From an uncultured Rickettsiales bacterium (GTDB taxonomy: Bacteria > Pseudomonadota > Alphaproteobacteria > UBA8366), in assembly GCA_913046825.1 (NCBI GenBank), contig CAJWTF010000073.1, positions 1 to 18,661 on the forward strand: a stretch of 18,661 nucleotides of DNA, read 5' to 3'. The notes below the pieces were generated by a model that had not been told where the DNA came from, did not search any database, and worked only from the letters and a program-made list of their open reading frames with translations. The translations under genes were made by a program, and so were the position numbers. Below, piece after piece: positions 3,305 to 18,598 of the stretch (positions are counted from its first letter, which is position 1; each line of letters opens with the position of its first letter).

Positions 3305-3813
3305 GAGTCGAGAGGTTCCCCCAGTGGGGGCTGCGTTGGGTCCGGGTCGAGGGCAGCGGTGAACCAGTCCGCGAGATCGCTGGGCCGCACGTTATCAGGG
3401 ATGTTTTCGCCGTCGTGCGGCAACCGTCCCACCAACATCAAATGAGCGATCATTCCAATGGCGTAAGTATCTGCCGACCTGTCCAGCTTCGCCGAGCCGT
3501 CTCTTTGTTTCGGAGCGGCACACGGGAAGGTGCCGGGCCGCGTGATGTCATGGTCACTGATATCCATCGTCCGGATTGCCTGACCGAAATCACAAATGAC
3601 CGGTATATACTTGGCAACCGTCGCTTCCCGGCATTATCAGGTCGAGGAGGATCAGATTGGGCACGCGCGACTTTGTGACGGAGATACCTTTTTCGCCGGA
3701 GGCGGCCTCGATGGTTTCTGCGTGGTCTTGGGTTAGCGCGGACAAATAGGCACGAATCGCCTCATTGTCATCAATCACCAACACCAATGGCTTGTTTAAG
3801 TATCTTCGGACAT
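3301..3813 (-). pseudogene. Decayed response-regulator receiver domain fused out of frame to a Ser/Thr kinase C-lobe
   Basis: Two signalling fragments lie head to tail. Fragment 1 (about 3787 to 3590) is the first half of a CheY-like receiver: LVIDDNEAIR (acidic pair) and LILLDLIMPGSDG (phosphoacceptor Asp), ending at a TGA after GCQVYTGHL. Fragment 2, in another frame (about 3620 to 3301), reads VICDFGQA (the DFG metal-binding motif), then PGTFPCAAPKQ in place of GTxxYxAPEQ, then SADTYAIGMIAHLML and GRLPHDGE. This is a eukaryotic-type kinase activation segment and partial C-lobe. The kinase N-lobe, the catalytic HRD loop and the second half of the receiver are missing, and APE has become APK. 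An ATG at 3813 (MSEDT, then stop) would read into the receiver if one base were added near ACTTAAAC. Most likely a deletion-fused pseudogene. Confidence 0.75.
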
Positions 3814-5470: not shown

Positions 5471-5842
5471 CTATTTAGGGGCATTCTCCGCGATCCAGGA
5501 ACGCCGCATGTCGACACACTCCTGATGCCGAATGTCAGTAATGATATCAAGCCCCGCATCGGTCAGCTGATCCAAGGCTTCGACCGTATAGTTGGCGTAT
5601 TGTTTTGCCAGCGGATCAATATCCTTCATGTCCGCATGCCGCGCGCCAATGACCTTGCTTTCCGGATACCGGAGGGCGAACGGCAGGCTGACGAAACCAA
5701 CCCCGACGCCGATATCGACAAGTGTCGATCGCGGTGCGGTACTGAGAGTGTCCCAGATGCGTTCCGGATCGAAATATTCAAGGCGCTCTGGACTGCGTAA
5801 TCGCTCGATCCGGGCTGGGTCCATGCCGTATTGATCAGCCAT
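5471..5842 (-). CDS. Small chimeric protein: methyltransferase-like N-terminus with a different C-terminal half
   Basis: The 123-residue product starts like a class I SAM-dependent methyltransferase. A helix (about residues 8-30) precedes the glycine-rich motif I LVDIGVGVGFVSLPFALRYPESKVIG (about 41-66), here quoted only as the region around VDIGVGVGF. A real methyltransferase would continue for another 100 or so residues. Instead the second half (about 68-123) reads DPLAKQYANY, then LTDAGLDIITDIRHQE and ends. It resembles the N-terminal part of MetE/UroD-type methionine synthase-like proteins (AGLDIITDGE); this is inference from motif memory. It may be a deletion fusion kept in frame, or a small orphan family. 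The start codon overlaps the leuD stop by one base (TAATG), implying translational coupling. Confidence 0.6.
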   Translation of the reverse strand: MADQYGMDPARIERLRSPERLEYFDPERIWDTLSTAPRSTLVDIGVGVGFVSLPFALRYPESKVIGARHADMKDIDPLAKQYANYTVEALDQLTDAGLDIITDIRHQECVDMRRSWIAENAPK

Positions 5843-6450
5843 TAGGATGCCCAGGTGTGTTTTAATTTATAGCTTTCGGCGAAATCCGTGATCTTGTCGT
5901 CAAACTCTAGCGTGAGACCGATATCGTCCAGGCCGTTCATCAGGCGGTGTTTGTCGAAAGCATTAATTTCGAAAGAATAGGTCGTCTGATTTGGGCCGGT
6001 GACACTTTGCGAGTCGAGATCGATGGCGATTTCCGCCCCGGGGCTCTCTCGCAACTGACGTCGCAAATCCTCACACGCTTCCGAAGAGAGGCGGATCGGC
6101 AGCACACCATTCTTAATGCAATTGGAAAAGTGAATATCAGCGATGCTGGGGGCGATAACCGACCGTACGCCGTTTGCCACCAGTGCGGTGACCGCGTTCT
6201 CTCGTGATGAACCGCAGCCCCAATTCACGTCGGTGACAAATATATGCCCGTTGCGATATGGTTCCTTGTTGTAGACGAAATCCTTTTCAGATCCGTCTCC
6301 ATTAAAGCGCAGGTCATGAAATAGGAAGCTGGCGTATTCTGGATCATTACTGCCGCGGCGCAGGAATCGTGCCGGAATGATTTGGTCGGTGTCGCAATTC
6401 GCGATATCGATGGGCACGGCGATGGCGGCGAAGGTCTTGAAGGGTTCCAT
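5842..6450 (-). CDS. leuD: 3-isopropylmalate dehydratase small subunit (LeuD family)
   Basis: Small 'swivel' subunit of isopropylmalate isomerase, about 202 residues, the usual LeuD length. Clear signatures are NCDTDQIIPARFL near the N-terminus, GCGSSRENAV (substrate-binding loop) and SNCIKNGVLPIRL. With LeuC it would convert 2-isopropylmalate to 3-isopropylmalate in leucine synthesis. I chose the ATG at 6450, two bases after the leuC TGA and about ten bases after GGAGG; a GTG at 6456 is the alternative. The gene sits between leuC and a chimeric small gene, and no leuB is present in the window. LeuCD relatives also hydrate maleate, citraconate or dimethylmaleate, so a catabolic hydratase cannot be excluded given the neighbours. 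Confidence 0.92.
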   Translation of the reverse strand: MEPFKTFAAIAVPIDIANCDTDQIIPARFLRRGSNDPEYASFLFHDLRFNGDGSEKDFVYNKEPYRNGHIFVTDVNWGCGSSRENAVTALVANGVRSVIAPSIADIHFSNCIKNGVLPIRLSSEACEDLRRQLRESPGAEIAIDLDSQSVTGPNQTTYSFEINAFDKHRLMNGLDDIGLTLEFDDKITDFAESYKLKHTWAS

Positions 6451-6452
6451 GA

Positions 6453-7856
6453 TCACGAGTCCTCCATGAGTTTGCGAACATCGGTGAAATGTCCTGTGAC
6501 GGATGCCGCTGTGGCCATAGCCGGGCTGACAAGATGGGTGCGGCTGCCGAGGCCCTGGCGGCCTCGGAAATTACGATTGCTGGTCGAGGCCGAACGTTCG
6601 CCCGGCTCCAGCATGTCACCGTTCATCGCGACACACATGGAGCAACCGGGCTCACGCCATTCCATACCCGCTTCGATGAAAATCTTGTCGAGCCCTTCCG
6701 CTTCGGCTTGGTTTTTCACCAAACCCGAGCCCGGCACGATTAGGGTGCGGACCTGGGCCTGGCGGCCTTTCGCAACCGCAGCAGCGGCGCGCATATCTTC
6801 GATCCGGCTGTTGGTGCAGGCGCCGACGAAGACAGTGTTTACCTTGATGTCGGAAATTGCCTGGCCTGGTTTCAAATCCATGTAGTCGAGGGCAGCTTCG
6901 ATTTCGGCACGCAGCATAGGGTCACTTTCTTGCGCCGGGTCCGGGATCGCCTCTGTTACCGGCAATGCCCATTGCGGTGAGTTGCCCCAGGTTACCATGG
7001 GTGCGATGGCGTCGCCGTCGATGGTGACCTCCTTGTCGAACACGGCATCGTCGTCCGACGGCAGGGAGCGCCAATATTTGACCGCCTTGTCCCACTCCGC
7101 CCCTGTGGGCGAATAGGGCCGACCCTTGCAATACTCGATGGTCTTTTCATCTGGCGCGATGATGCCGGAACGGGCGCCGGCTTCAATGGCCATATTGCAA
7201 ACCGTCATGCGGCCTTCCATTGACATCGCCTCGATCACCGGGCCGGCGAATTCGATGGCGTAGCCGGTACCGCCAGCCGCGCTTATCTCGCGGATGACGG
7301 CGAGGATTACGTCCTTGCCGCTGACGCCAAAACCGAGCTCGCCGGTGATGTTGATCCGCATCATTTTCGGCTTGCGCTGCCAAACGGTCTGGGTCGCCAT
7401 AACGTGCTGTACCTCGGTCGAGCCGATGCCAAAGGAAATACAGCCAAGCGCCCCATGGGTCGAAGTGTGCGAATCACCGCACACCAAGGTCAGACCCGGC
7501 AAGGTAATCCCTTGTTCCGGGCCGACGACATGGACAATGCCGTGCCGGTCATCAGTCATCGAGTAATGGGTAAACCCCATTTCTTCCGCCGCCTCGGCCA
7601 GGACTTCGACAGCGGTCCGCATCTCGCCTTCCGGAATATCGTCGATGGTTTTGGCCGTGGTCGGCACGCTGTGGTCCGGGACGCCAAAGGTCTTGTCCGG
7701 CTCGCGTAGAGTCAGACCGTTCTTCTTGAGCGCCGCAAACGAGCGAAAATGGAGGTCGTGCGTCATATGACGGTCGATATAGAGCAGAACATCGCCGTCT
7801 TCGCGCTCGTAGATGACGTGTTCGTCCCAGATATTTTCGAAAAGAGTTTTTCCCAT
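6453..7856 (-). CDS. leuC: 3-isopropylmalate dehydratase large subunit (LeuC family)
   Basis: A full-length 467-residue aconitase-family protein, close to the usual LeuC length of about 466. The three cysteine ligands of the [4Fe-4S] cluster are visible: C347 (GACTNSRIEDM) and C405/C408 (PGCSMC). CGDSHTSTHGALG, GPEQGITLPG, SMEGRMTVCNMAIEAGA and SPAMATAASVTGHF are all canonical. The stretch HMTHDLHFRSFAALKKNG (about 30-47) differs from the HLVHEVTSPQAFxGLR I remember for standard LeuC, close to where substrate side-chain specificity is set. The ATG at 7856 lacks a strong ribosome-binding site. The gene heads the minus-strand cluster and is divergent from a GlcG-like gene across a 121-bp spacer with a palindrome. 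Confidence 0.93.
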   Translation of the reverse strand: MGKTLFENIWDEHVIYEREDGDVLLYIDRHMTHDLHFRSFAALKKNGLTLREPDKTFGVPDHSVPTTAKTIDDIPEGEMRTAVEVLAEAAEEMGFTHYSMTDDRHGIVHVVGPEQGITLPGLTLVCGDSHTSTHGALGCISFGIGSTEVQHVMATQTVWQRKPKMMRINITGELGFGVSGKDVILAVIREISAAGGTGYAIEFAGPVIEAMSMEGRMTVCNMAIEAGARSGIIAPDEKTIEYCKGRPYSPTGAEWDKAVKYWRSLPSDDDAVFDKEVTIDGDAIAPMVTWGNSPQWALPVTEAIPDPAQESDPMLRAEIEAALDYMDLKPGQAISDIKVNTVFVGACTNSRIEDMRAAAAVAKGRQAQVRTLIVPGSGLVKNQAEAEGLDKIFIEAGMEWREPGCSMCVAMNGDMLEPGERSASTSNRNFRGRQGLGSRTHLVSPAMATAASVTGHFTDVRKLMEDS

Positions 7857-9354: not shown

Positions 9355-9368
9355 GAGGAAGCAGAAGA

Positions 9369-10979
9369 ATGTCCGACGGGAAAATCGAAAGTTTTGACGT
9401 AGTGGTCGTAGGGGCGGGATTTGCCGGTCTTTATTCGCTGCATAAGCTTCGCGGCATGGGTATGAGCGTCAAGGTGTTCGAGGCCGGCGACGGTGTTGGC
9501 GGCACGTGGTTTTGGAATCGCTATCCTGGCGCGCGCTGCGACGTCGAGAGTATGGAGTATTCCTACTCCTTCGACCCCGAATTGGAGCAGGAATGGGTCT
9601 GGCCAGACAAATACAGCAAGCAGAATGATATCCTCGCTTATGCCAATCATGTGGCGGACCGTTTTGATTTGCGCCGGGACATCCAGTTTGAAACCCGCAT
9701 CAAGTCTGCACTTTTCGACCGTGAGACCAATCGTTGGACCATCGAGACAGAAAAGGGCGAGCAGGTATCAGCGCAATTCTGCATCATGGCGGTCGGCAAT
9801 CTCTCGACGCCCCGAGTGCCTGATTTCAAAGGCGTCGATAGCTTCAAGGGCGAGTGGTACCACAGCGGTCTCTGGCCAAAAGAGGGCGTCGATTTCACTG
9901 GCAAGCGCGTCGGCATTATCGGCACCGGGTCGACTGGCATCCAAATTATTCCGCAAGTCGCACCCCAGGCGAAGCATCTGCACATCTTCCAACGGACGGC
10001 GAATTATAGCCTGCCCGCACGCAACGGTCCGATGCCGGAAGAGGTGCGTGCGGCCCATAAGAAGAAATACCGTGAACTGCGTGAGCAAGCTTATTTTACG
10101 CCCTTCGGAATCGCCGGATATCCGCCGCCGGAGAAAGCTGCGATCGAAGCTGGGGCAGACGAGCGGACCGAAAGGTATGCCGATAAATGGGCTGAAGGCG
10201 GGACCATCAGCTATCTCTTCGCCTATAACGATCTGCTAACTAACGCGGAGTCGAACAAGACCGCGTCCGATTTCGTGCGCGAGCGCATTCGGGAAATCGT
10301 CAAGGATACGAAAACTGCGGAGATGTTGTGCCCGAATGATCACCCCATCGGCACAAAACGCATCTGCTTGGATAGTGGATATTATGAGACCTACAATCGC
10401 GATAACGTCACACTGGTTGACGTTCGCAGCGCACCGATCGAGGAGATAACCGAGACCGGATTGCGCACGAGCGAGAGTGAGTTCGAACTCGACGCGATCA
10501 TCTTCGCGACCGGTTTCGATGCCATGACGGGCGCGATCCTGGAGATGGATGTCCGCACGTCCGACGGCCTCGCCATGAAGGATAAATGGCAGGACGGGCC
10601 GCTGACATATCTCGGCATCATGGTCTCAGGGTTTCCTAACATGTTCGTCATTACCGGCCCCGGCAGCCCCGGCGTGAAGTCGCAAATGATCCTTTCCATT
10701 GAGCAGCACACTGACTGGATTACCGACTGTATAGCGAACATGCGAGAGAAAGGCCTCTCGATGGCTGAGGCGCAACCGGATGCCGAAGCGAAATGGGTGC
10801 AGCACGTTAATGAGGTTGCGGATACCACACTCTATCCGCAGGCGAACTCGTGGTACGTCGGAGCCAACATACCGGGCAAACCACGTGTCTTCATGCCTTA
10901 TGTCGGCGGTGTAGAGGCCTACAAGAAAATTTGTGACGGCGTCGTGGCGAAAGGCTACGAAGGCATCGATCTCACCTGA
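9369..10979 (+). CDS. Type I Baeyer-Villiger monooxygenase (flavoprotein)
   Basis: A 536-residue FAD- and NADPH-dependent monooxygenase that would insert oxygen next to a ketone to give an ester or lactone. It shows the FAD loop VVGAGFAGLYS (about 14-23), the BVMO motif GGTWFWNRYPGARCD (44-58), the fingerprint FKGEWYHSGLWP (159-170, matching FxGxxxHxxxWP), the NADPH loop GTGSTG (185-190) and the late ATGFD motif. This is the cyclohexanone-monooxygenase-like layout, at typical length. The frame is open upstream to 9303, but the ATG at 9369 follows AAGAGGAAGCAG and gives a normal N-terminus (MSDGKIESFDVVVVGAG). The substrate is unknown. Following genes supply CoA activation and beta-oxidation-type steps. 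Confidence 0.94.
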   Translation: MSDGKIESFDVVVVGAGFAGLYSLHKLRGMGMSVKVFEAGDGVGGTWFWNRYPGARCDVESMEYSYSFDPELEQEWVWPDKYSKQNDILAYANHVADRFDLRRDIQFETRIKSALFDRETNRWTIETEKGEQVSAQFCIMAVGNLSTPRVPDFKGVDSFKGEWYHSGLWPKEGVDFTGKRVGIIGTGSTGIQIIPQVAPQAKHLHIFQRTANYSLPARNGPMPEEVRAAHKKKYRELREQAYFTPFGIAGYPPPEKAAIEAGADERTERYADKWAEGGTISYLFAYNDLLTNAESNKTASDFVRERIREIVKDTKTAEMLCPNDHPIGTKRICLDSGYYETYNRDNVTLVDVRSAPIEEITETGLRTSESEFELDAIIFATGFDAMTGAILEMDVRTSDGLAMKDKWQDGPLTYLGIMVSGFPNMFVITGPGSPGVKSQMILSIEQHTDWITDCIANMREKGLSMAEAQPDAEAKWVQHVNEVADTTLYPQANSWYVGANIPGKPRVFMPYVGGVEAYKKICDGVVAKGYEGIDLT

Positions 10980-11086: not shown

Positions 11087-11851
11087 ATGGTTGAAAGAGT
11101 ACGCGTAGACGTGGCGGGACCGGTCAAGACGGTAACCCTGACGCGCCCCGAGAAGCGCAACGCGATGGATACCGCGATGCTGGATGCGTTGTACGAAGTG
11201 TTCAGCGAAGCACCCGCACTGACGGACCGATTGATTGTGCTGCGCGCGGAAGGCTCGACCTACTGTTCGGGCGTCGATTTGAAAGAACGTTTGGCGTTGG
11301 GTGTGACGTCGGGCGAAAGCCCAGTCGAGCGCGTTTTCCACGCCATGGAAACCCACCCCCTTCCCATCGTCACCGTGGTCGAAGGTCCGGCCATCGCCGG
11401 CGGATGCGAGCTTGCCCTACATTGTGAATTCATCGTTGCGTCGGAAGATGCACGGTTTGGCATGTCTTTGGCGCAGGTGGGATTGGCGCCGACCTGGTTC
11501 CTCGCGAAGAAACTCATGGAAGTGGCGGGCCCCGTCGGCACGCGGGAAATTCTGCTGCTTGGCGATACGATGCCTGCGCAATGGATGCATGATCGCGGCT
11601 TGATCGCGCGCGTGGCGCCGAAGGATCAATTGGAAGCCGAAGTGCAGAAAATTGTTGATCGATTGTCCAGCAATGCGCCGCTATCGCTGAAGGCCATGAA
11701 AGCTATGGTCGTGCGCCAACTCGCGTTCCGCGACGGTACCGCGCATGAAGACGTTGACGCCTTGGTGCAGGTGGCACGCAAGAGTGACGATTCAAAAGAA
11801 GGCATGTCCGCGCGCCTTGAGAAGCGGAAACCAAACTTCAGCGGAACCTGA
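11087..11851 (+). CDS. Enoyl-CoA hydratase/isomerase-family protein lacking the second catalytic Glu
   Basis: A 254-residue crotonase-fold protein. The CoA-binding and oxyanion-hole segments are present: PEKRNAMD (21-28), CSGVDL (60-65) and GPAIAGGCEL (100-109). E108 corresponds to Glu144 of rat mitochondrial hydratase. The position equivalent to Glu164, 20 residues later, is Leu128 in FGMSLAQVG (the usual form is FGQPEIxxG). A two-glutamate hydration mechanism is therefore unlikely as drawn, and isomerase, hydrolase, lyase or dehalogenase-type chemistry are options. GAGGAA precedes the ATG. The gene starts a tight plus-strand run with the GIY-YIG-like protein, acyl-CoA dehydrogenase and CoA-transferase. 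Confidence 0.9.
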   Translation: MVERVRVDVAGPVKTVTLTRPEKRNAMDTAMLDALYEVFSEAPALTDRLIVLRAEGSTYCSGVDLKERLALGVTSGESPVERVFHAMETHPLPIVTVVEGPAIAGGCELALHCEFIVASEDARFGMSLAQVGLAPTWFLAKKLMEVAGPVGTREILLLGDTMPAQWMHDRGLIARVAPKDQLEAEVQKIVDRLSSNAPLSLKAMKAMVVRQLAFRDGTAHEDVDALVQVARKSDDSKEGMSARLEKRKPNFSGT

Positions 11852-11865
11852 GAGCGGAGAGAGAT

Positions 11866-12207
11866 ATGCCGGTTCGTATGGATAAACCTTGGGCGCCGCT
11901 CAATGATGAGTCTCTGACGACGATCGCGTCGCATCTCGGCGTCTATCAGCTGGCGAACGATGCGGGCGAGATCCTCTATATTGGTGTCGCCGATGCGCGC
12001 ACGTTGTTTGGCCTGAAGGGGGAATTGCGGAAGGCCATTGCTGAGCCGCCCGCCGGGGCAACCCAGTTTAGGGTTGAGGTGAATATGGCCTACCGGACCC
12101 GTCACATGGAACTTTTGCAAGCCTACCAACATGACCACGGCGCCCTGCCGGTCGCCAATACGGATATCGATCCCCGGATGCTCGGGCGTTTGCGTCCCGC
12201 CGGATAA
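11866..12207 (+). CDS. Small GIY-YIG-like protein
   Basis: A 113-residue product that I cannot assign to a characterised protein, but which carries what looks like a complete GIY-YIG core. GVY (25-27) and YIG (38-40) lie 10 residues apart in the strand pair GVYQLANDAGEILYIG. They are followed by an Arg (R55), a Glu (E82 in HMELLQAYQ) and an Asn (N98). This resembles the nuclease core of UvrC and homing endonucleases, although here it is a stand-alone domain with no DNA-binding extension. It sits 14 bases after the ECH-family gene and 20 bases before the acyl-CoA dehydrogenase gene, with its own GGAGAGAG ribosome-binding site, so it is co-expressed with acyl-CoA enzymes. A non-nuclease role is possible. 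Confidence 0.72.
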   Translation: MPVRMDKPWAPLNDESLTTIASHLGVYQLANDAGEILYIGVADARTLFGLKGELRKAIAEPPAGATQFRVEVNMAYRTRHMELLQAYQHDHGALPVANTDIDPRMLGRLRPAG

Positions 12208-12227
12208 GTTAAGAAAAGGATAGACCC

Positions 12228-13391
12228 ATGGATATGGCTCTGAGTGACGAGCAACGAATGATCGTCGATATGGTGCGCCGCTTTGTGCGCGAGGAAATCG
12301 TGCCCCTCGAAGATGATCTCGACCCGGACGCGGACGAAGTATCGCCAGAAAAACTGGCGGAGCTGGTTGAGAAGACCAAGGAGATGGGTCTACATGGGCT
12401 CGATACACCGCCTGAATATGGCGGGCCGGATATCAATCTCGTTACCCGCTGCTTGATCGCCATCGAATGCAGCCAGCACCGCGCCGGGCTCTATGCGCCG
12501 TGCTATTACGCTTTCGGCGGTGCGCGCCAGGCGCAGTTGTTCGAAGCGAACGACGCGCAAAAGGATAAGTATCTCTATCCGATGCTGCGCGGCGAGAAGA
12601 AGGTTTTCTTTGGTCTGTCGGAGCCGTCCGGAGGCAGCGATCCCGGCCGTGCCATTCAAACCCGCGCGGTGCGCGACGGCGACGATTGGGTAATAAATGG
12701 CACCAAACTTTGGATCAGCGGTGCGGACCGCGCTGATTATGGATTGCTTTTTGCGCGCACGGGCGGGCCGGGCCGTGGCGGTGTCACAGCCTTCATCGTC
12801 GAGACCGAATGGGAAGGCTTCAACGTCCGCCGGATCGTCCACACGTTACGCTCCGCCAAATACGCAACGGAAATCCAACTCGAGGATTTGCGGGTGCCGC
12901 ATGAAAATATTCTTGGTGAGGAAGGTGGTGGGTTTGCCATTGCTAATGACCGCCTGTCGCTCCAGCGCGTGCCCTATTCGGCGGAATGTCTCGGCGTTGC
13001 TATCAAGGCGCATGAAATGGCGGTTGAATACGCCAAGATTCGTGAAACCTTCGGCGCGCCCTTGGCGCATCGCCAGGGTATCCAGTGGATGTTGGTGGAG
13101 AACGAGATCGATATCCGCGCCGCCAAACTGCTGGTTTTTGATGCGGCGGCAAAAGCCGACCGTGGAGAGCCATTCCGCACTGAATCCGCCATCGCCAAAC
13201 TGATCGCGAGTGAGAACAGCTTCAAAGTTGTCGACCGCTCGATGCAGATTCACGGTGGCCTCGGCGTCGCCAAGGATTTGCCGCTTGAGCGCTGGTTCCG
13301 CGAGATGCGCATTCGCCGCGTCGGTGAAGGACCGAGCGAAGTCCAGAAGCATGTTATCGCACGGGATATATTGAACGAGTCGCTAAGGTAG
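12228..13391 (+). CDS. Acyl-CoA dehydrogenase
   Basis: A 387-residue flavoprotein with the three-part acyl-CoA dehydrogenase layout. The N-terminal helical domain (residues about 1-115) runs through EIVPLED. The middle beta domain carries FFGLSEPSGGSDPG (FAD/substrate loop) and WVINGTKLWISGA. The C-terminal helical domain carries RETFGAPLAHRQGIQWML, QIHGGLGVAKDLPLERWFRE and the terminal GEGPSEVQ, whose first Glu (about E367) is the usual position of the catalytic base. It should oxidise an acyl-CoA to the trans-2-enoyl-CoA and pass electrons to ETF. The start is an ATG at 12228 after AAAAGGA. The chain length or branching preference cannot be told from sequence. Confidence 0.95.
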   Translation: MDMALSDEQRMIVDMVRRFVREEIVPLEDDLDPDADEVSPEKLAELVEKTKEMGLHGLDTPPEYGGPDINLVTRCLIAIECSQHRAGLYAPCYYAFGGARQAQLFEANDAQKDKYLYPMLRGEKKVFFGLSEPSGGSDPGRAIQTRAVRDGDDWVINGTKLWISGADRADYGLLFARTGGPGRGGVTAFIVETEWEGFNVRRIVHTLRSAKYATEIQLEDLRVPHENILGEEGGGFAIANDRLSLQRVPYSAECLGVAIKAHEMAVEYAKIRETFGAPLAHRQGIQWMLVENEIDIRAAKLLVFDAAAKADRGEPFRTESAIAKLIASENSFKVVDRSMQIHGGLGVAKDLPLERWFREMRIRRVGEGPSEVQKHVIARDILNESLR

Positions 13392-13396
13392 AAAGA

Positions 13397-13514
13397 GCCC
13401 TCACCCCAGCCCTCTCCCGCACGCGGGAGAGGGAGCGAAGGCAGACGCGCCTATCCCCTCTACCGTGTGCGGGAGATGGAGGGGCCCATTGCGAAGCGAT
13501 GGGAGGGTGAGGGC
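13397..13514. repeat. Palindromic intergenic repeat element with nested hairpins (about 118 bp)
   Basis: The element opens with GCCCTCACCC (13397-13406) and closes with its exact complement GGGTGAGGGC (13505-13514). Inside is a perfect 11-bp stem, CCCTCTCCCGC (13410-13420) with GCGGGAGAGGG (13423-13433), then a weaker CCCTCT/GGAGATGGAGGG pair. CCCATTGC and GCGATGGG (about 13483-13502) form a third hairpin. CCCTCACCCCnnCCCTCTCCCGC is a widespread proteobacterial repeat motif, here placed between the acyl-CoA dehydrogenase and CoA-transferase genes. It probably folds in the mRNA. The upstream ATG at 13467 lies inside the repeat and is unlikely to be a real start. Confidence 0.75.
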
Positions 13515-13517
13515 AAG

Positions 13518-14735
13518 ATGGAGACGAACATGACAGACCAACCGCGTTGGCCGCTTGAGGGGGTAAAGGTTCTCGACCTCGGGCAAATTTATAATGGACC
13601 CTATGCCGGTTTCCTGTTGGCGCATGCGGGCGCGGACGTGATTAAGGTGGAACCGCTAGACGGTGAAGTCTTGCGTAAACGTGGTGGCGGGCTCGGCGCG
13701 CCCTTCTCGCTCACCATGTTGAATACCAACAAGCGCGGTATTTCCATCAACCTGAAGCACCCGGACGGAAAGCAATTGCTGATCGATCTGGTGAAAGAAG
13801 CGGACATCCTGTTGGAGAATTTCGCGCCGGGCGCAATGGATCGCCTCGGCCTCGGTTCAGATGTTTTGCTGCGTGAGAACCCCCGGCTGATTTATGGCTC
13901 CAGCACTGGCTATGGGCTATCCGGGCCCGATCGGGACAACCTCGCGATGGACCTGACGGTGCAGGCCATCGGTGGCGTGATGAGCATCAACGGTCCTGAT
14001 GATGGGCCGCCGTTAAAGGCGGGACTCGCGGTCTGCGATTTTGCGGGGGGGGTGCATCTCTACGCCGCGATCATGACCGCGCTCTTCGAACGCTCGGTGA
14101 CGGGCAAGGGCCGGGTGGTCGAGGTGGCGATGCAGGAAGCGATTTATCCGATCCTCACCAGCAATATTACCAGCCTGCACGGTAACGGCTGGAAGCATCC
14201 GGCACGGCGCGGCAACAAACATCCAACGAATGGTTCCGCCCCATACAATGTCTATCAATGTGCTGACGGCCATGTGGCGATTATCTGCGTCCAGGAAGCA
14301 CATTGGCAAAATCTATTGGAATTGATGGGCCGGGATGATTTGAAGGATGACCCGCGGTTCGAGACCCAAGCCATCCGTGCGCAAAATGAGCATGCGGTCG
14401 ACGAAGCGGTCGGGGCTTGGACGCGCACGCTTCCGAAAGCGGAGGCGGCGCAATTAATGCGTGAGAACCGCGTCCCAGCGGCGATGGTTCGAAATCTAGA
14501 AGAGGTCACGGCCGATCCTCATATGCATGAGCGCGGCATGCTGCATGACGTCGATCATCCGACCATGGGCCAGGTGGTATTGCCGACCAGCCCGCTCCGC
14601 TTTCACGGTAGCCCCAACCCGTCGGTTGAGCTGGAGCCGGGGACCGGAGCGCATACCGATGAGGTGTTGGCCGAGTGGTTGGGGATGGACAAGGCAGTGG
14701 TCGAGACATTCCGCAAGGACGATGCGGTCGGCTAG
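13518..14735 (+). CDS. CaiB/BaiF (family III) CoA-transferase
   Basis: A 405-residue family III CoA-transferase, which moves CoA between carboxylic acids through an aspartyl-CoA adduct. Seen are GVKVLDLGQIYNGPYAGFLLAHAGADVIKVEPLDG at the N-terminus (motifs about 15-50), LNTNKRGISINLKHPDG, and DRDNLAMDLTVQAIGGVMSING, where D145 is the expected nucleophile. C-terminal signatures are REAHVPAAMVR-like RVPAAMV and HERGMLHDVDHPTMG. The ATG at 13518 follows the repeat and a GGGAGGGTGAGGGCAAG Shine-Dalgarno-like stretch; an ATG at 13530 is an alternative. It is last in the plus-strand cluster and ends five bases from the stop of a convergent gene. It probably activates the acid produced after Baeyer-Villiger ester cleavage (inference). 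Confidence 0.92.
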   Translation: METNMTDQPRWPLEGVKVLDLGQIYNGPYAGFLLAHAGADVIKVEPLDGEVLRKRGGGLGAPFSLTMLNTNKRGISINLKHPDGKQLLIDLVKEADILLENFAPGAMDRLGLGSDVLLRENPRLIYGSSTGYGLSGPDRDNLAMDLTVQAIGGVMSINGPDDGPPLKAGLAVCDFAGGVHLYAAIMTALFERSVTGKGRVVEVAMQEAIYPILTSNITSLHGNGWKHPARRGNKHPTNGSAPYNVYQCADGHVAIICVQEAHWQNLLELMGRDDLKDDPRFETQAIRAQNEHAVDEAVGAWTRTLPKAEAAQLMRENRVPAAMVRNLEEVTADPHMHERGMLHDVDHPTMGQVVLPTSPLRFHGSPNPSVELEPGTGAHTDEVLAEWLGMDKAVVETFRKDDAVG

Positions 14736-14739
14736 CTCA

Positions 14740-15390
14740 CTACCCGTCGAACCAGGCGCGCCATGCGTCCCACGCGGTGATGCGCGCGGCCATTATGACA
14801 TAGCCATCCGCATTCGGGTGCAATCCGTCCGATGCCCGCAGGCTCGCCTCCCAATCGGGGTTGTCCGCGAGGTTGGAGTACAGATCCAAATACGGCACGC
14901 CGAGCTCCGCCGCCTGCTTCGCATAGGCCTGGCTATAGGTCTTGATCATCGGATTTTGGAAATCATAACTGATGCCCGGCAGTCGGTTGATTGGCATCAT
15001 CTCGGCGATGACCGGTGTGGGGCCGACCCACAGTGCGGGCCCGACGCTCTTGGCGGCCATGATCATGCGCGAAATACGCTCCAGCGACTGATCTAGCGGG
15101 ACACGCTGCCCGTCCAAATTAGCGCTTTTTTCGTGCGCGCTGTCGTTGATGCCGATGGCCCAGACCGTGGCACAATTCATTTCTGCCTTGAGCCGAGAGT
15201 TTACCTCGATGTCCCAGCGGTCCTCGACCAGTGCCGAGGTGTCAGCGCGAATGCCCAGGTTATAGACTGTAACGTCGTGGCCCTTGGCGGCTTCCGCCTG
15301 GCCAACCCGGTAGGTCCAACCGAGCAGTGTCTCGTCTCCAGTGCCGTGCGTGATACTGTCGCCAACGAATCCGATGCGAATTTGAGTCAT
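14740..15390 (-). CDS. SGNH/GDSL-family hydrolase
   Basis: A 216-residue hydrolase with all four SGNH blocks: GDS with Ser12 (FVGDSITHG), block II Gly46 (YNLGIRAD), block III Asn82 (AIGIND) and the C-terminal Asp188-x-x-His191 (SDGLHP). It should be an esterase, lipase or thioesterase-type enzyme using a Ser/His/Asp triad. No signal peptide is evident, so it is probably cytoplasmic. It is the last of a four-gene minus-strand set, following the racemase-like gene by about 50 bases with a GGGGAGAAG ribosome-binding site. In this setting it might hydrolyse the ester or lactone that the nearby BVMO forms, or act on a substrate shared with the racemase-like enzymes. Confidence 0.9.
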   Translation of the reverse strand: MTQIRIGFVGDSITHGTGDETLLGWTYRVGQAEAAKGHDVTVYNLGIRADTSALVEDRWDIEVNSRLKAEMNCATVWAIGINDSAHEKSANLDGQRVPLDQSLERISRMIMAAKSVGPALWVGPTPVIAEMMPINRLPGISYDFQNPMIKTYSQAYAKQAAELGVPYLDLYSNLADNPDWEASLRASDGLHPNADGYVIMAARITAWDAWRAWFDG

Positions 15391-16194: not shown

Positions 16195-16956
16195 CTACAA
16201 CCGCGACAATCGTGGCGTCCATCCGCCGATCAACACTTCGCCCGGATGCTCCGGCGGGGCCAGATGCACCAAGCCGAGCTCGTCGAGCAGTGCCCAGGCG
16301 AGGCAAATGTTTGAGCAGAGGAATGGTTTGCCGGTACGCGCGAGCAGCGGCGCCACGGCGGGCAAGGTTGCCATGCCGGAGCCGGTGACGACAATGGCGT
16401 CGGCGTTTTCGGTCTCCAGCGCCTTTGACGCTTCGAGCATGCCTTCCGTCCGTAGCCCGTAAATTTTGACCGTATCGGACGTGTCTTCCGGCATGGTCGC
16501 GATAGAGACGACTTCGTAGCCCTTGGCCGTCCAATAGGCCGAACTCAACTCGGTCAGCCAGGCTGGATAGGGGCTGAACAGCGCCAAGCGTTTGGCGTCA
16601 AGCCGTTCCAGTGCCCGTTGGATGGCCTGTGCCGAAGAGATAATCGGATAGCCCACTTTCTCCGACATCGCCGCCAAACGTTCGTCTTGATTGACGTCTG
16701 TCATATAGGCGGTCGCGGTGAACGAAAACCCGAAGGCGTCGATCTGGGCTTTGCCATAGGCCTGCAAGCTGGCTTCCAAATTATCGATATATTCATAGAA
16801 ACGGTCACGGGCGTTATCTGCCGTGCCGATCAATCGCGTTACCAACATGCCGACACCATCCGGCAGCAGCGCGGACATCTCCGCTTCGACGACGGGATTG
16901 GTCTGCGGTGGCGCAATACCTAGCAGGGCGTGGCGGGCATATTCGCGTTCAGGCAT
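16195..16956 (-). CDS. Maleate isomerase/arylmalonate decarboxylase-family protein, paralogue B
   Basis: A 253-residue Asp/Glu racemase-superfamily protein of the maleate cis-trans isomerase/arylmalonate decarboxylase type. Motifs are LGIAPPQTNPVVEAE (12-26), FGFSFTATAY (75-84), LALFSPYPAWL, DTVKIYGLRT, VVTGSGMATLPA (189-200) and the end segment LIGGWTPRLSRL. It is about 63% identical to the next gene upstream over an ungapped 253 positions. The residue at the expected first catalytic Cys is Phe79, and the residue near the second Cys is Gly192/Gly194, so neither catalytic cysteine is obvious. It may have a different mechanism, a non-catalytic role, or use another residue. The start at 16956 gives the N-terminus shared with its paralogue; a longer reading to 17091 overlaps the upstream gene and is unlikely. 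Confidence 0.85.
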   Translation of the reverse strand: MPEREYARHALLGIAPPQTNPVVEAEMSALLPDGVGMLVTRLIGTADNARDRFYEYIDNLEASLQAYGKAQIDAFGFSFTATAYMTDVNQDERLAAMSEKVGYPIISSAQAIQRALERLDAKRLALFSPYPAWLTELSSAYWTAKGYEVVSIATMPEDTSDTVKIYGLRTEGMLEASKALETENADAIVVTGSGMATLPAVAPLLARTGKPFLCSNICLAWALLDELGLVHLAPPEHPGEVLIGGWTPRLSRL

Positions 16957-16967
16957 TTGTTTTCTTT

Positions 16968-17729
16968 CTATAACCGAGCAAGCCGCGGCGTCCAGCCGCC
17001 GATCAAAGTCTCCCAAGGGTTGGCGGGCGGGGCAAGACCCGCGATGCCAAGTTCGTCCAGCAACGCCCAGGCAAGACACAGGTTTGAGCACAGAACCGGC
17101 TTGCCGGTGCGCTGATACAGCGGCTCGATGGCGGGCAATACCGGCATGCCCGTCCCGGTCACCAGGATGACGTCAGCTTGTTCAGTCTCCAATGCCGCCG
17201 CTGCCGCTAGAAACCCGGTGGATGTCAGCCCGTAGATATTCACCGTATCGGTAGTGTCGTCGGGCATCGTGCTCCAGGAGACGATGTCATAGCCGACACT
17301 GTCCCAATAAACGCGGCTCGCCTCGGTCAGCCAATCGGGATAGGGACTGAAAAGAGCAATCCGGCGGGCACCCAATCGATCCAACGCGCTGCGGATTGCC
17401 ATCGCAGAAGACAGGACCGGAATGCCGCGCCGTGCTGAGGCCGCGCCCAGAATGTCCGGCTCATCGCTGCCGTAAAGATACGCCGTCGCCGTACAAGCAA
17501 ACCCCATTGCATCGGGTTGCGCCTTGCCATAGGCGGCGAGGCTCTGGTCGAAATTCTCTAGGAACTGACGAAACCGCGTCTTCGGGTCTTCCGCCGTCCC
17601 CGTCAGCCGCGTCGTGAGCAATCCAACGCCGTCCGGCATCAATGCGCCATACTCCGCCTCCACCACCGGGTTCGATTGCGGCGGCGCAATACCAATCAAA
17701 GCATGGTGGGCGTATTCGCGAGAGGGCAT
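16968..17729 (-). CDS. Maleate isomerase/arylmalonate decarboxylase-family protein, paralogue A
   Basis: The first gene of the minus-strand set encodes 253 residues of the same family as its neighbour. It has LIGIAPPQSNPVVEAEYGAL, MGFACTATAY (75-84) with C79 at the first catalytic cysteine position, ALFSPYPDWL, DTVNIYGLTS, LVTGTGMPVLPA (189-200) and TLIGGWTPRLARL. The second cysteine position (about 192-194; C194 in maleate isomerase as I recall) reads Gly-Thr-Gly. The two cysteines in LCSNLCLAW (214, 218) are at a different structural site. Arylmalonate decarboxylase is remembered as Gly74/Cys188, so this protein has the opposite arrangement. AGGAG precedes the ATG at 17729. The gap to paralogue B is 11 bases, consistent with tandem duplication. 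Confidence 0.87.
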   Translation of the reverse strand: MPSREYAHHALIGIAPPQSNPVVEAEYGALMPDGVGLLTTRLTGTAEDPKTRFRQFLENFDQSLAAYGKAQPDAMGFACTATAYLYGSDEPDILGAASARRGIPVLSSAMAIRSALDRLGARRIALFSPYPDWLTEASRVYWDSVGYDIVSWSTMPDDTTDTVNIYGLTSTGFLAAAAALETEQADVILVTGTGMPVLPAIEPLYQRTGKPVLCSNLCLAWALLDELGIAGLAPPANPWETLIGGWTPRLARL

Positions 17730-18140: not shown

Positions 18141-18387
18141 TTACCCCGCCGCCAACGCATGGGCCTGCTCCAGCGTCACCGTGCCTTGGCTCAGCACCAC
18201 CGCGACCGCCATTGGGTCTTTGTCGTTCGGGATGCCGAGCGGGTCTTGTGGGCGCAGGCGGTGGTCGATGACCATACGAGCCAGGATCAGGCGGCGCGCG
18301 TCTTCGCCCATCGCACCCAAATGCGCGCCCTCGCGGGTGAGGAGCGTTGCAGTCGTCACATGACAGAGTGCGTCGGAGGCCGCGCTT
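18141..18387 (-). pseudogene. C-terminal stump of an unassigned enzyme, possibly an acyl-CoA dehydrogenase
   Basis: The frame is open from a stop near 18388 down to the TAA at 18141, about 81 codons. It reads RSAASDALCH, then LLTREGAHLGAMGEDARRL, MVIDHRLRPQDPLGI and GTVTLEQAHALAAG. The helical, Arg- and Ala-rich composition and the DHRLRPQDPLG tail remind me of the C-termini of some acyl-CoA dehydrogenases, but this is recall and not proof. A GTG at 18359 is the only in-frame start candidate and has no convincing ribosome-binding site. The 5' part of the gene is missing, because LysR-type coding sequence on the other strand begins at the same place. Probably a rearrangement remnant. Confidence 0.45.
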
Positions 18388-18598
18388 CGATAGCCTCAAC
18401 CTGTCGATCCAGGCGGCCATTGGCGGCGTCGGTGTTGGCATCGTAATTCGGGCGTTGGTGGAGGAGCTCGCAAGTGGGCGATTGATCCAAACCTTTGGGC
18501 CCTCTCGCCTCTCTAGCCAATCCTTCTACCTCACATATTCATCCCATCGCGCGCGGGATAAACGCTTGGTGGCTTTCGCTGAATGGATAAATGCATGA
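18375..18598 (+). pseudogene. LysR-type transcriptional regulator, C-terminal stump
   Basis: About 74 residues ending at the TGA at 18596-18598 match the last part of a LysR effector-binding domain (GcvA-like). Features are LNLSIQAAIGGVGVGIVI, then ALVEELASGRLIQTFGP, SFYLTYSSHRARDKRLVAFAEWI. The winged-helix DNA-binding domain and most of the effector domain (about 220 residues) are absent upstream. The frame continues a little upstream to an ATG at 18347, but that part (SSHDRVRRRPR) does not look like LysR. It would be non-functional as a regulator. It may once have controlled a neighbouring catabolic operon. Confidence 0.7.

Follow-up and report, generated by a model that had tools for sequence, protein, structure and literature searches.

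Two groups of enzymes provide the closest described comparison for the proteins considered here. In arylmalonate decarboxylase (AMDase; EC 4.1.1.76; Bordetella bronchiseptica, structures 3dg9 and 2vlb), a glycine (Gly74) occupies one catalytic position and the cysteine that donates the proton (Cys188) the other, and shifting the thiol to position 74 leads to the (S)-product (PMC12576825). The known wild-type AMDases are all strictly (R)-selective, a conserved preference that has been called puzzling (PMC4996985). Maleate cis-trans isomerase (2xec, 2xed, 4fq7) has two catalytic cysteines. In an 18,661-nucleotide contig of an uncultured Rickettsiales bacterium (GenBank assembly GCA_913046825.1, CAJWTF010000073.1), which was analysed as a whole and is henceforth the window, we find two adjacent genes, A and B, of the Pfam family PF17645 (Amdase). 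A has the layout opposite to that of wild-type AMDase, with Cys79 and Gly192, and B has a cysteine at neither catalytic position. We give roughly even weight to the reading that they are an old, duplicated and co-inherited pair within a PF17645 subfamily lacking the second cysteine, in which A would be a single-thiol enzyme and B either its partner or a thiol-free enzyme.

Genes A (16968..17729) and B (16195..16956) both lie on the minus strand, and B starts 11 bases past the stop codon of A, a gap that suggests co-transcription. The initial annotation had described them as tandem paralogues of 253 aa each, and this is confirmed by their gapless alignment with 160 of 253 residues identical; the residues that it had named at the catalytic sites are also present in the sequence. 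In A, by sequence and alignment, Cys79 (codon 17493..17495, minus strand) falls in the column of AMDase Gly74 and of the first-site cysteine of maleate isomerase, and Gly192 (17154..17156, minus strand) is the equivalent of AMDase Cys188. The sequence of B has Phe79 (16720..16722) and Gly192 (16381..16383) on the same strand. The only other cysteines are Cys214 and Cys218, which both proteins have. Over their whole length, A (50.1 bits) and B (55.5 bits) belong to PF17645 (curated cut-off 25.9), but they fall far short of the equivalog cut-offs of NCBIfam NF052327 (arylmalonate decarboxylase; 41.1 and 55.6 versus 225 bits) and of TIGR02990 (the ectoine utilisation protein EutA; 56.3 and 49.9 versus 318 bits). 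The combination of Gly74 and Cys188 used to recognise AMDases is replaced by Cys79/Gly192 in A and Phe79/Gly192 in B, and their dioxyanion hole (Thr75, Ser76, Tyr126, Gly189) is absent as a set (PMC4996985, Table 4). The stretches of the AMDase hydrophobic pocket (Leu40, Val43, Tyr48, Val156, Met159) are not confidently alignable at about 20% identity. Among solved AMDase chains, the highest scores of A are with the engineered variants G74C/C188S (3ixl, 23.4 bits) and G74C (3ixm, 22.2 bits), with the wild type at 18.7-18.9 bits, which independently supports the earlier proposal that A is the positional mirror image of the AMDase thiol.

By its aligned residues, the pocket of A is closer to that of maleate isomerase than to that of AMDase. 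All of 71 aligned rows have Asn20, Thr80 and Tyr130, which match the asparagine of the PSSN motif and the tyrosine of maleate isomerase as well as Thr75 and Tyr126 of AMDase. Of the two maleate isomerase cysteines (Cys76 and Cys194), the second is absent from both A and B, and the first from B too. We take the isomerase residue in the column of A's Cys79 to be the nucleophile, numbered 76, and the counterparts of Asn20 and Tyr130 to be Asn14 and Tyr133, with the roles that these have there. The assignment of the nucleophile to this cysteine rests on the covalent succinyl-cysteine adduct trapped in the C194S mutant (title of 2xed), in which the other catalytic cysteine is the one in A's column.

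To place these residues in a wider setting, we aligned A and B with the best 120 of 506 homologues of A (122 rows), of which 116 were retained after dropping six short rows. Position 79 is cysteine in all 17 rows of the A clade, phenylalanine in all 19 of the B clade and valine, isoleucine or leucine in all six of a further clade, V; the remaining 74 rows have cysteine in 72 cases and asparagine in two, which brings Cys79 to 89 of the 116. Gly192 is present in every row, followed by threonine in 97 and by serine in the 19 B rows. Nine positions, including 78, 79, 87 and 193, distinguish A from B, each being at least 90% conserved within either clade. Ten more distant loci from nine genomes, found in a sample of 385 genomes of the same class, have Cys79 in eight cases and Thr79 in two, and all ten have the Gly-Thr-Gly motif at the second site; among five further loci, L003, L066, L067 and L069 have Cys79, L068 has Ile79, and all have Gly192. 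The threonine at position 79 in L018 and L020 and the isoleucine in L068, each with Gly192, as well as the asparagine in P0057 and P0060, are additional natural losses of the first cysteine.

As a contrast, we searched 200 Pseudomonadota genomes, 34 of which contained a total of 56 matches to PF17645. We examined 30 of these loci, each from a different genome and in most cases its top scorer, with low-scoring matches and the A/B genes of one sampled genome, G002, lying outside the 30. The two catalytic positions in these are Cys/Cys in 22, Gly/Cys, as in AMDase, in six and Ser/Asp in two, and the Cys/Gly type is found in none of the 30. The Ser/Asp loci, L048 and L053, represent another thiol-free type within PF17645. 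Judged by these alignments, Cys/Gly is the mark of a distinct subfamily of which A is an ordinary member; this subfamily is uncharacterised, and its cysteine layout is no local oddity. Because most of the PF17645 relatives examined hold both cysteines, the simplest history for A is retention of the first and loss of the second, and the notion of a "relocated" cysteine in the initial annotation does not stand.

In a 76-row tree, the A clade (support 98/93) and the B clade (100/99) are sisters (A+B, 100/98), and two further loci, L001 and L002, each supply one copy to either clade. This indicates that the duplication is old and that both copies were retained; on this phylogeny, the separation of A from B predates the genomes in which the two occur. 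The V (Val79) clade branches outside A+B, though in a 38-row tree a grouping of B with this clade is not rejected (AU test, p 0.127), which allows a single shared loss of Cys79. The A orthologues in L001 and L002 are 77% and 79% identical to A, and the corresponding B orthologues 83% and 87% identical to B. Among the three orthologues, dN is 0.09-0.16 for A and 0.05-0.12 for B, with dS above 1.2 in every comparison and thus saturated, so that the ratios are only indicative. The coding sequences show both A and B to be under constraint.

Two short peptide patterns, run against a species-genome collection, retrieved three loci: in L001 and L002, A is followed by B on one strand with 80 and 1,360 bases between them, and L003 has a single Cys79 relative. 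Both of the further genomes with A or B hence have the two genes as neighbours in the same order, and within the gene cluster that they share with the window; the recurrence of the pair in these two related bacteria suggests a shared task. No additional copies better than E 2e-30 were found in G001-G003, and the genes are present in two of 43 genomes of the order of G002 (E 1e-60). The 1,360-base gap of L002 (10763-12122) includes short stretches and one 68% stretch that match elsewhere in G002; its 274-aa forward frame has no Pfam match, and no match was found in G001. Wider scans at E 1e-45 covered samples of 385, 399 and 398 genomes, with the best six or seven candidates scored per genome, such that extra copies may be missed. 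Altogether, members of the subfamily occur in 16 distinct genomes: two have the tandem pair, 13 a single gene, and one (G336) two genes on different short contigs. Protein lists point to two further, likely A/B pairs, namely P0016 (A-like) with P0020 (B-like), for both of which the longest contig measures 26,744, and P0017 (B-like) with P0104 (A-like), the latter two with the locus numbers VX430_03655 and VX430_03660. A search of plasmids matched 313 records, all below 60% identity.

On the minus strand, A and B are followed by a third member of the superfamily, an Asp/Glu/hydantoin racemase family gene (PF01177; 15443..16102) with a cysteine in both motifs (GC77YSD and GC181AGM), and by a GDSL hydrolase (14740..15390). 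Further along are the large subunit of a LeuC-type 3-isopropylmalate dehydratase/aconitase (6453..7856) and a LeuD-type small subunit (5842..6456), both on the minus strand. On the plus strand are a flavin monooxygenase (9366..10979), whose best NCBIfam match, below cut-off, is the Baeyer-Villiger-type pentalenolactone D synthase, and a run of genes for an enoyl-CoA hydratase, a small protein without assigned function, an acyl-CoA dehydrogenase and a CoA-transferase III (11087..14735). These belong to a conserved cluster that G002 carries at about 65-95% identity and G001 in part. The genes shared with G002 comprise LeuC, LeuD, a cupin, an LLM protein, a phosphoesterase, a 2-hydroxyacid dehydrogenase, SDRs, the Baeyer-Villiger-type monooxygenase, the enoyl-CoA hydratase, the acyl-CoA dehydrogenase, the CoA-transferase III, the GDSL hydrolase and the racemase-family gene. 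The order of the core from the 2-hydroxyacid dehydrogenase to the CoA-transferase is kept; in G002 the racemase and GDSL genes are inverted, the former as a 75% identical copy (L024) away from A/B, which lie at the opposite end, past the dehydrogenase. More diverged LeuC-like genes, 56-70% identical, number two in G001 and three in G002, and given the latter the LeuC copy of the cluster is probably catabolic. The cluster as a whole would be consistent with a route that degrades a cyclic or branched compound via CoA esters and dicarboxylic acids.

A placement of the distant relatives in the same cluster is unsupported: blastp of the open reading frames in their 10 stretches recovered, apart from the relatives, nothing but matches to the 2-hydroxyacid dehydrogenase, to LLM and SDR, and to a fragment of a methyltransferase (24-52% identity). 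In the window, a scan for promoters and terminators gave chance-level results, and Rfam had nothing at gathering scores. Several neighbouring genes are fragmentary. Upstream of A (18144-18589), the C-terminal 78 residues of an acyl-CoA dehydrogenase of 594 aa (75% to L002) are joined at about 18380 to a LysR regulator fragment covering residues 218-288; the two genes are complete in L002, where they adjoin A. A methyltransferase-like gene (5471-5842) is shortened, its ends matching two separate G002 frames (L024) about 700 bases apart. Between the LLM and phosphoesterase genes (3325-3796), fragments alone match two G002 cluster frames (282 and 335 aa), and an SDR gene (1499-2337) matches a 321-aa open frame of G002 in two different frames and looks broken.

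Within the favoured reading of an old, co-inherited pair, A, which retains the first-site thiol, Asn20, Thr80 and Tyr130 with a glycine in place of the second thiol, would use its single thiol to act on a dicarboxylate intermediate of the cluster pathway. One thiol would suit decarboxylative protonation or nucleophilic isomerisation rather than two-base racemisation. Most likely, A would protonate an enediolate following decarboxylation, from the face opposite to that served by Cys188 of AMDase; less likely, it would add to a maleate-type double bond. B, which retains the same three residues beside Phe79 with no thiol at either site, may be the partner of A, possibly in physical association, or may catalyse a thiol-free step on a related substrate. 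A stronger version, which extends the heteromer suggested in the initial annotation, would be a single hetero-oligomeric enzyme in which the lone thiol of A acts with inverted stereochemistry from the face opposite to that of AMDase, with B as a subunit that has no thiol and regulates the enzyme or shapes its substrate; this we consider unlikely.

Several observations weigh against this reading. The 13 single genes have Cys79 in 10 cases, Thr79 in two and Ile79 in one; as three of these genomes thus hold a member without Cys79, its loss need not imply a partner, and this slightly lowered the already small probability that we attach to the hetero-oligomer. The pairing of A and B, to which the initial annotation had looked for support, is seen in the two further genomes with either gene; the lone members without Cys79 speak against a general need for a partner. 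Moreover, both of these genomes belong to one order, and the spacing of the pair widens from 11 bases in the window and 80 in L001 to 1,360 in L002. Neither a malonate nor a maleate substrate is named by the cluster genes. In the dioxyanion hole, Thr80 and Tyr130 are kept, but Ser76 is replaced by Ala81, and Gly189 by Thr193 in A and Ser193 in B. Finally, wild-type AMDase is 20,000-fold faster than the engineered G74C/C188S variant, although four further substitutions raise the activity of the latter about 9,500-fold (PMC12576825).

Among the alternatives, a lesser but real possibility is that A and B are separate enzymes of one pathway, with A a cis-trans isomerase using Cys79 as nucleophile on an alkyl-maleate or alkyl-fumarate, the LeuCD-type hydratase acting next, and B a thiol-free enzyme or binding protein handling a related acid. 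This is countered by the missing second cysteine of maleate isomerase and by the residue which we take to be its Asn163, at the position of Thr162 here, and which is accordingly not kept. Likewise, LeuC and LeuD matches are absent from the sequence flanking the 10 distant relatives, which spans 3.6-18.5 kb per locus and in some cases ends with the contig, and 4ix1, the first match both by Foldseek E-value and for the sequence of A alone, has no assigned function. The fold searches used the B model (71-row alignment), the A model (21 rows) being mediocre (pLDDT 74.4); both models are of single chains.

It is distinctly improbable that B is an inactive or purely structural leftover of duplication, with adjacent genes simply having hitch-hiked together within a single small clade to give its pairing with A. 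Such an origin would account for the loss of both catalytic cysteines from B, and is in keeping with the truncation of several neighbours in the window, which attests to decay here, and with the small number of independent tests of co-inheritance that two genomes of one order provide. Yet the B frame is intact in all three genomes, with the dN given above set against saturated dS, and Phe79 and Ser193 are kept in 19 of 19 B rows while some neighbours decayed. The least probable alternative, to which we give very little credence, is that Cys214 or Cys218 took over catalysis, so that neither protein truly lost its catalytic cysteine. The initial annotation had allowed that one of these might lie in the pocket, and the evidence is mixed. 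Cys218, at the start of the helix following strand 212-214, is invariant in all 116 near rows, but it is serine or alanine in seven of the 10 more distant loci, five of which retain Cys79, making it an unlikely substitute thiol. Cys214 is replaced by serine or threonine throughout the 74 rows that fall in none of the A, B and V clades, and by serine in four of 17 A rows and one of 19 B rows.

The locus is of interest mainly for offering natural proteins in which to test the mirror-image question about AMDase, and for its conserved pairing of a thiol-bearing with a thiol-free protein. Cys74 is found in none of the 58 AMDase candidates of a 2016 survey (PMC4996985), an absence that is partly built in, as Gly74 was a search criterion (Table 4 therein). 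Among the open-access matches listed, no title or abstract opening mentions a naturally occurring member of the Cys74 type or a pairing of A with B. The subfamily of A would supply natural proteins whose thiol sits on the side opposite to that of AMDase, with a glycine facing it, making the question directly testable. B and the other relatives without Cys79 (the Val/Ile/Leu, Asn and Thr types) would in turn form a natural series on this fold without catalytic thiols, either alone or beside a thiol-bearing sister.

This combination is distinct from each of the described members of the superfamily. The engineered G74C/C188S AMDase (3ixl) has its thiol on the same side as A, but it has a serine at position 188 where A has glycine, and A is a natural protein with a different pocket. 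OPAG_01669 of Rhodococcus opacus (4ix1; 23% identical) resembles B in lacking a cysteine at both sites, but differs in having a glycine at the first. E. coli L-DER (Thr83/Cys197) and OpaE (Cys90/Cys199), described as direction-biased members of the superfamily (PMC12661438), retain the second-site cysteine, which is precisely the one that the subfamily of A has lost.
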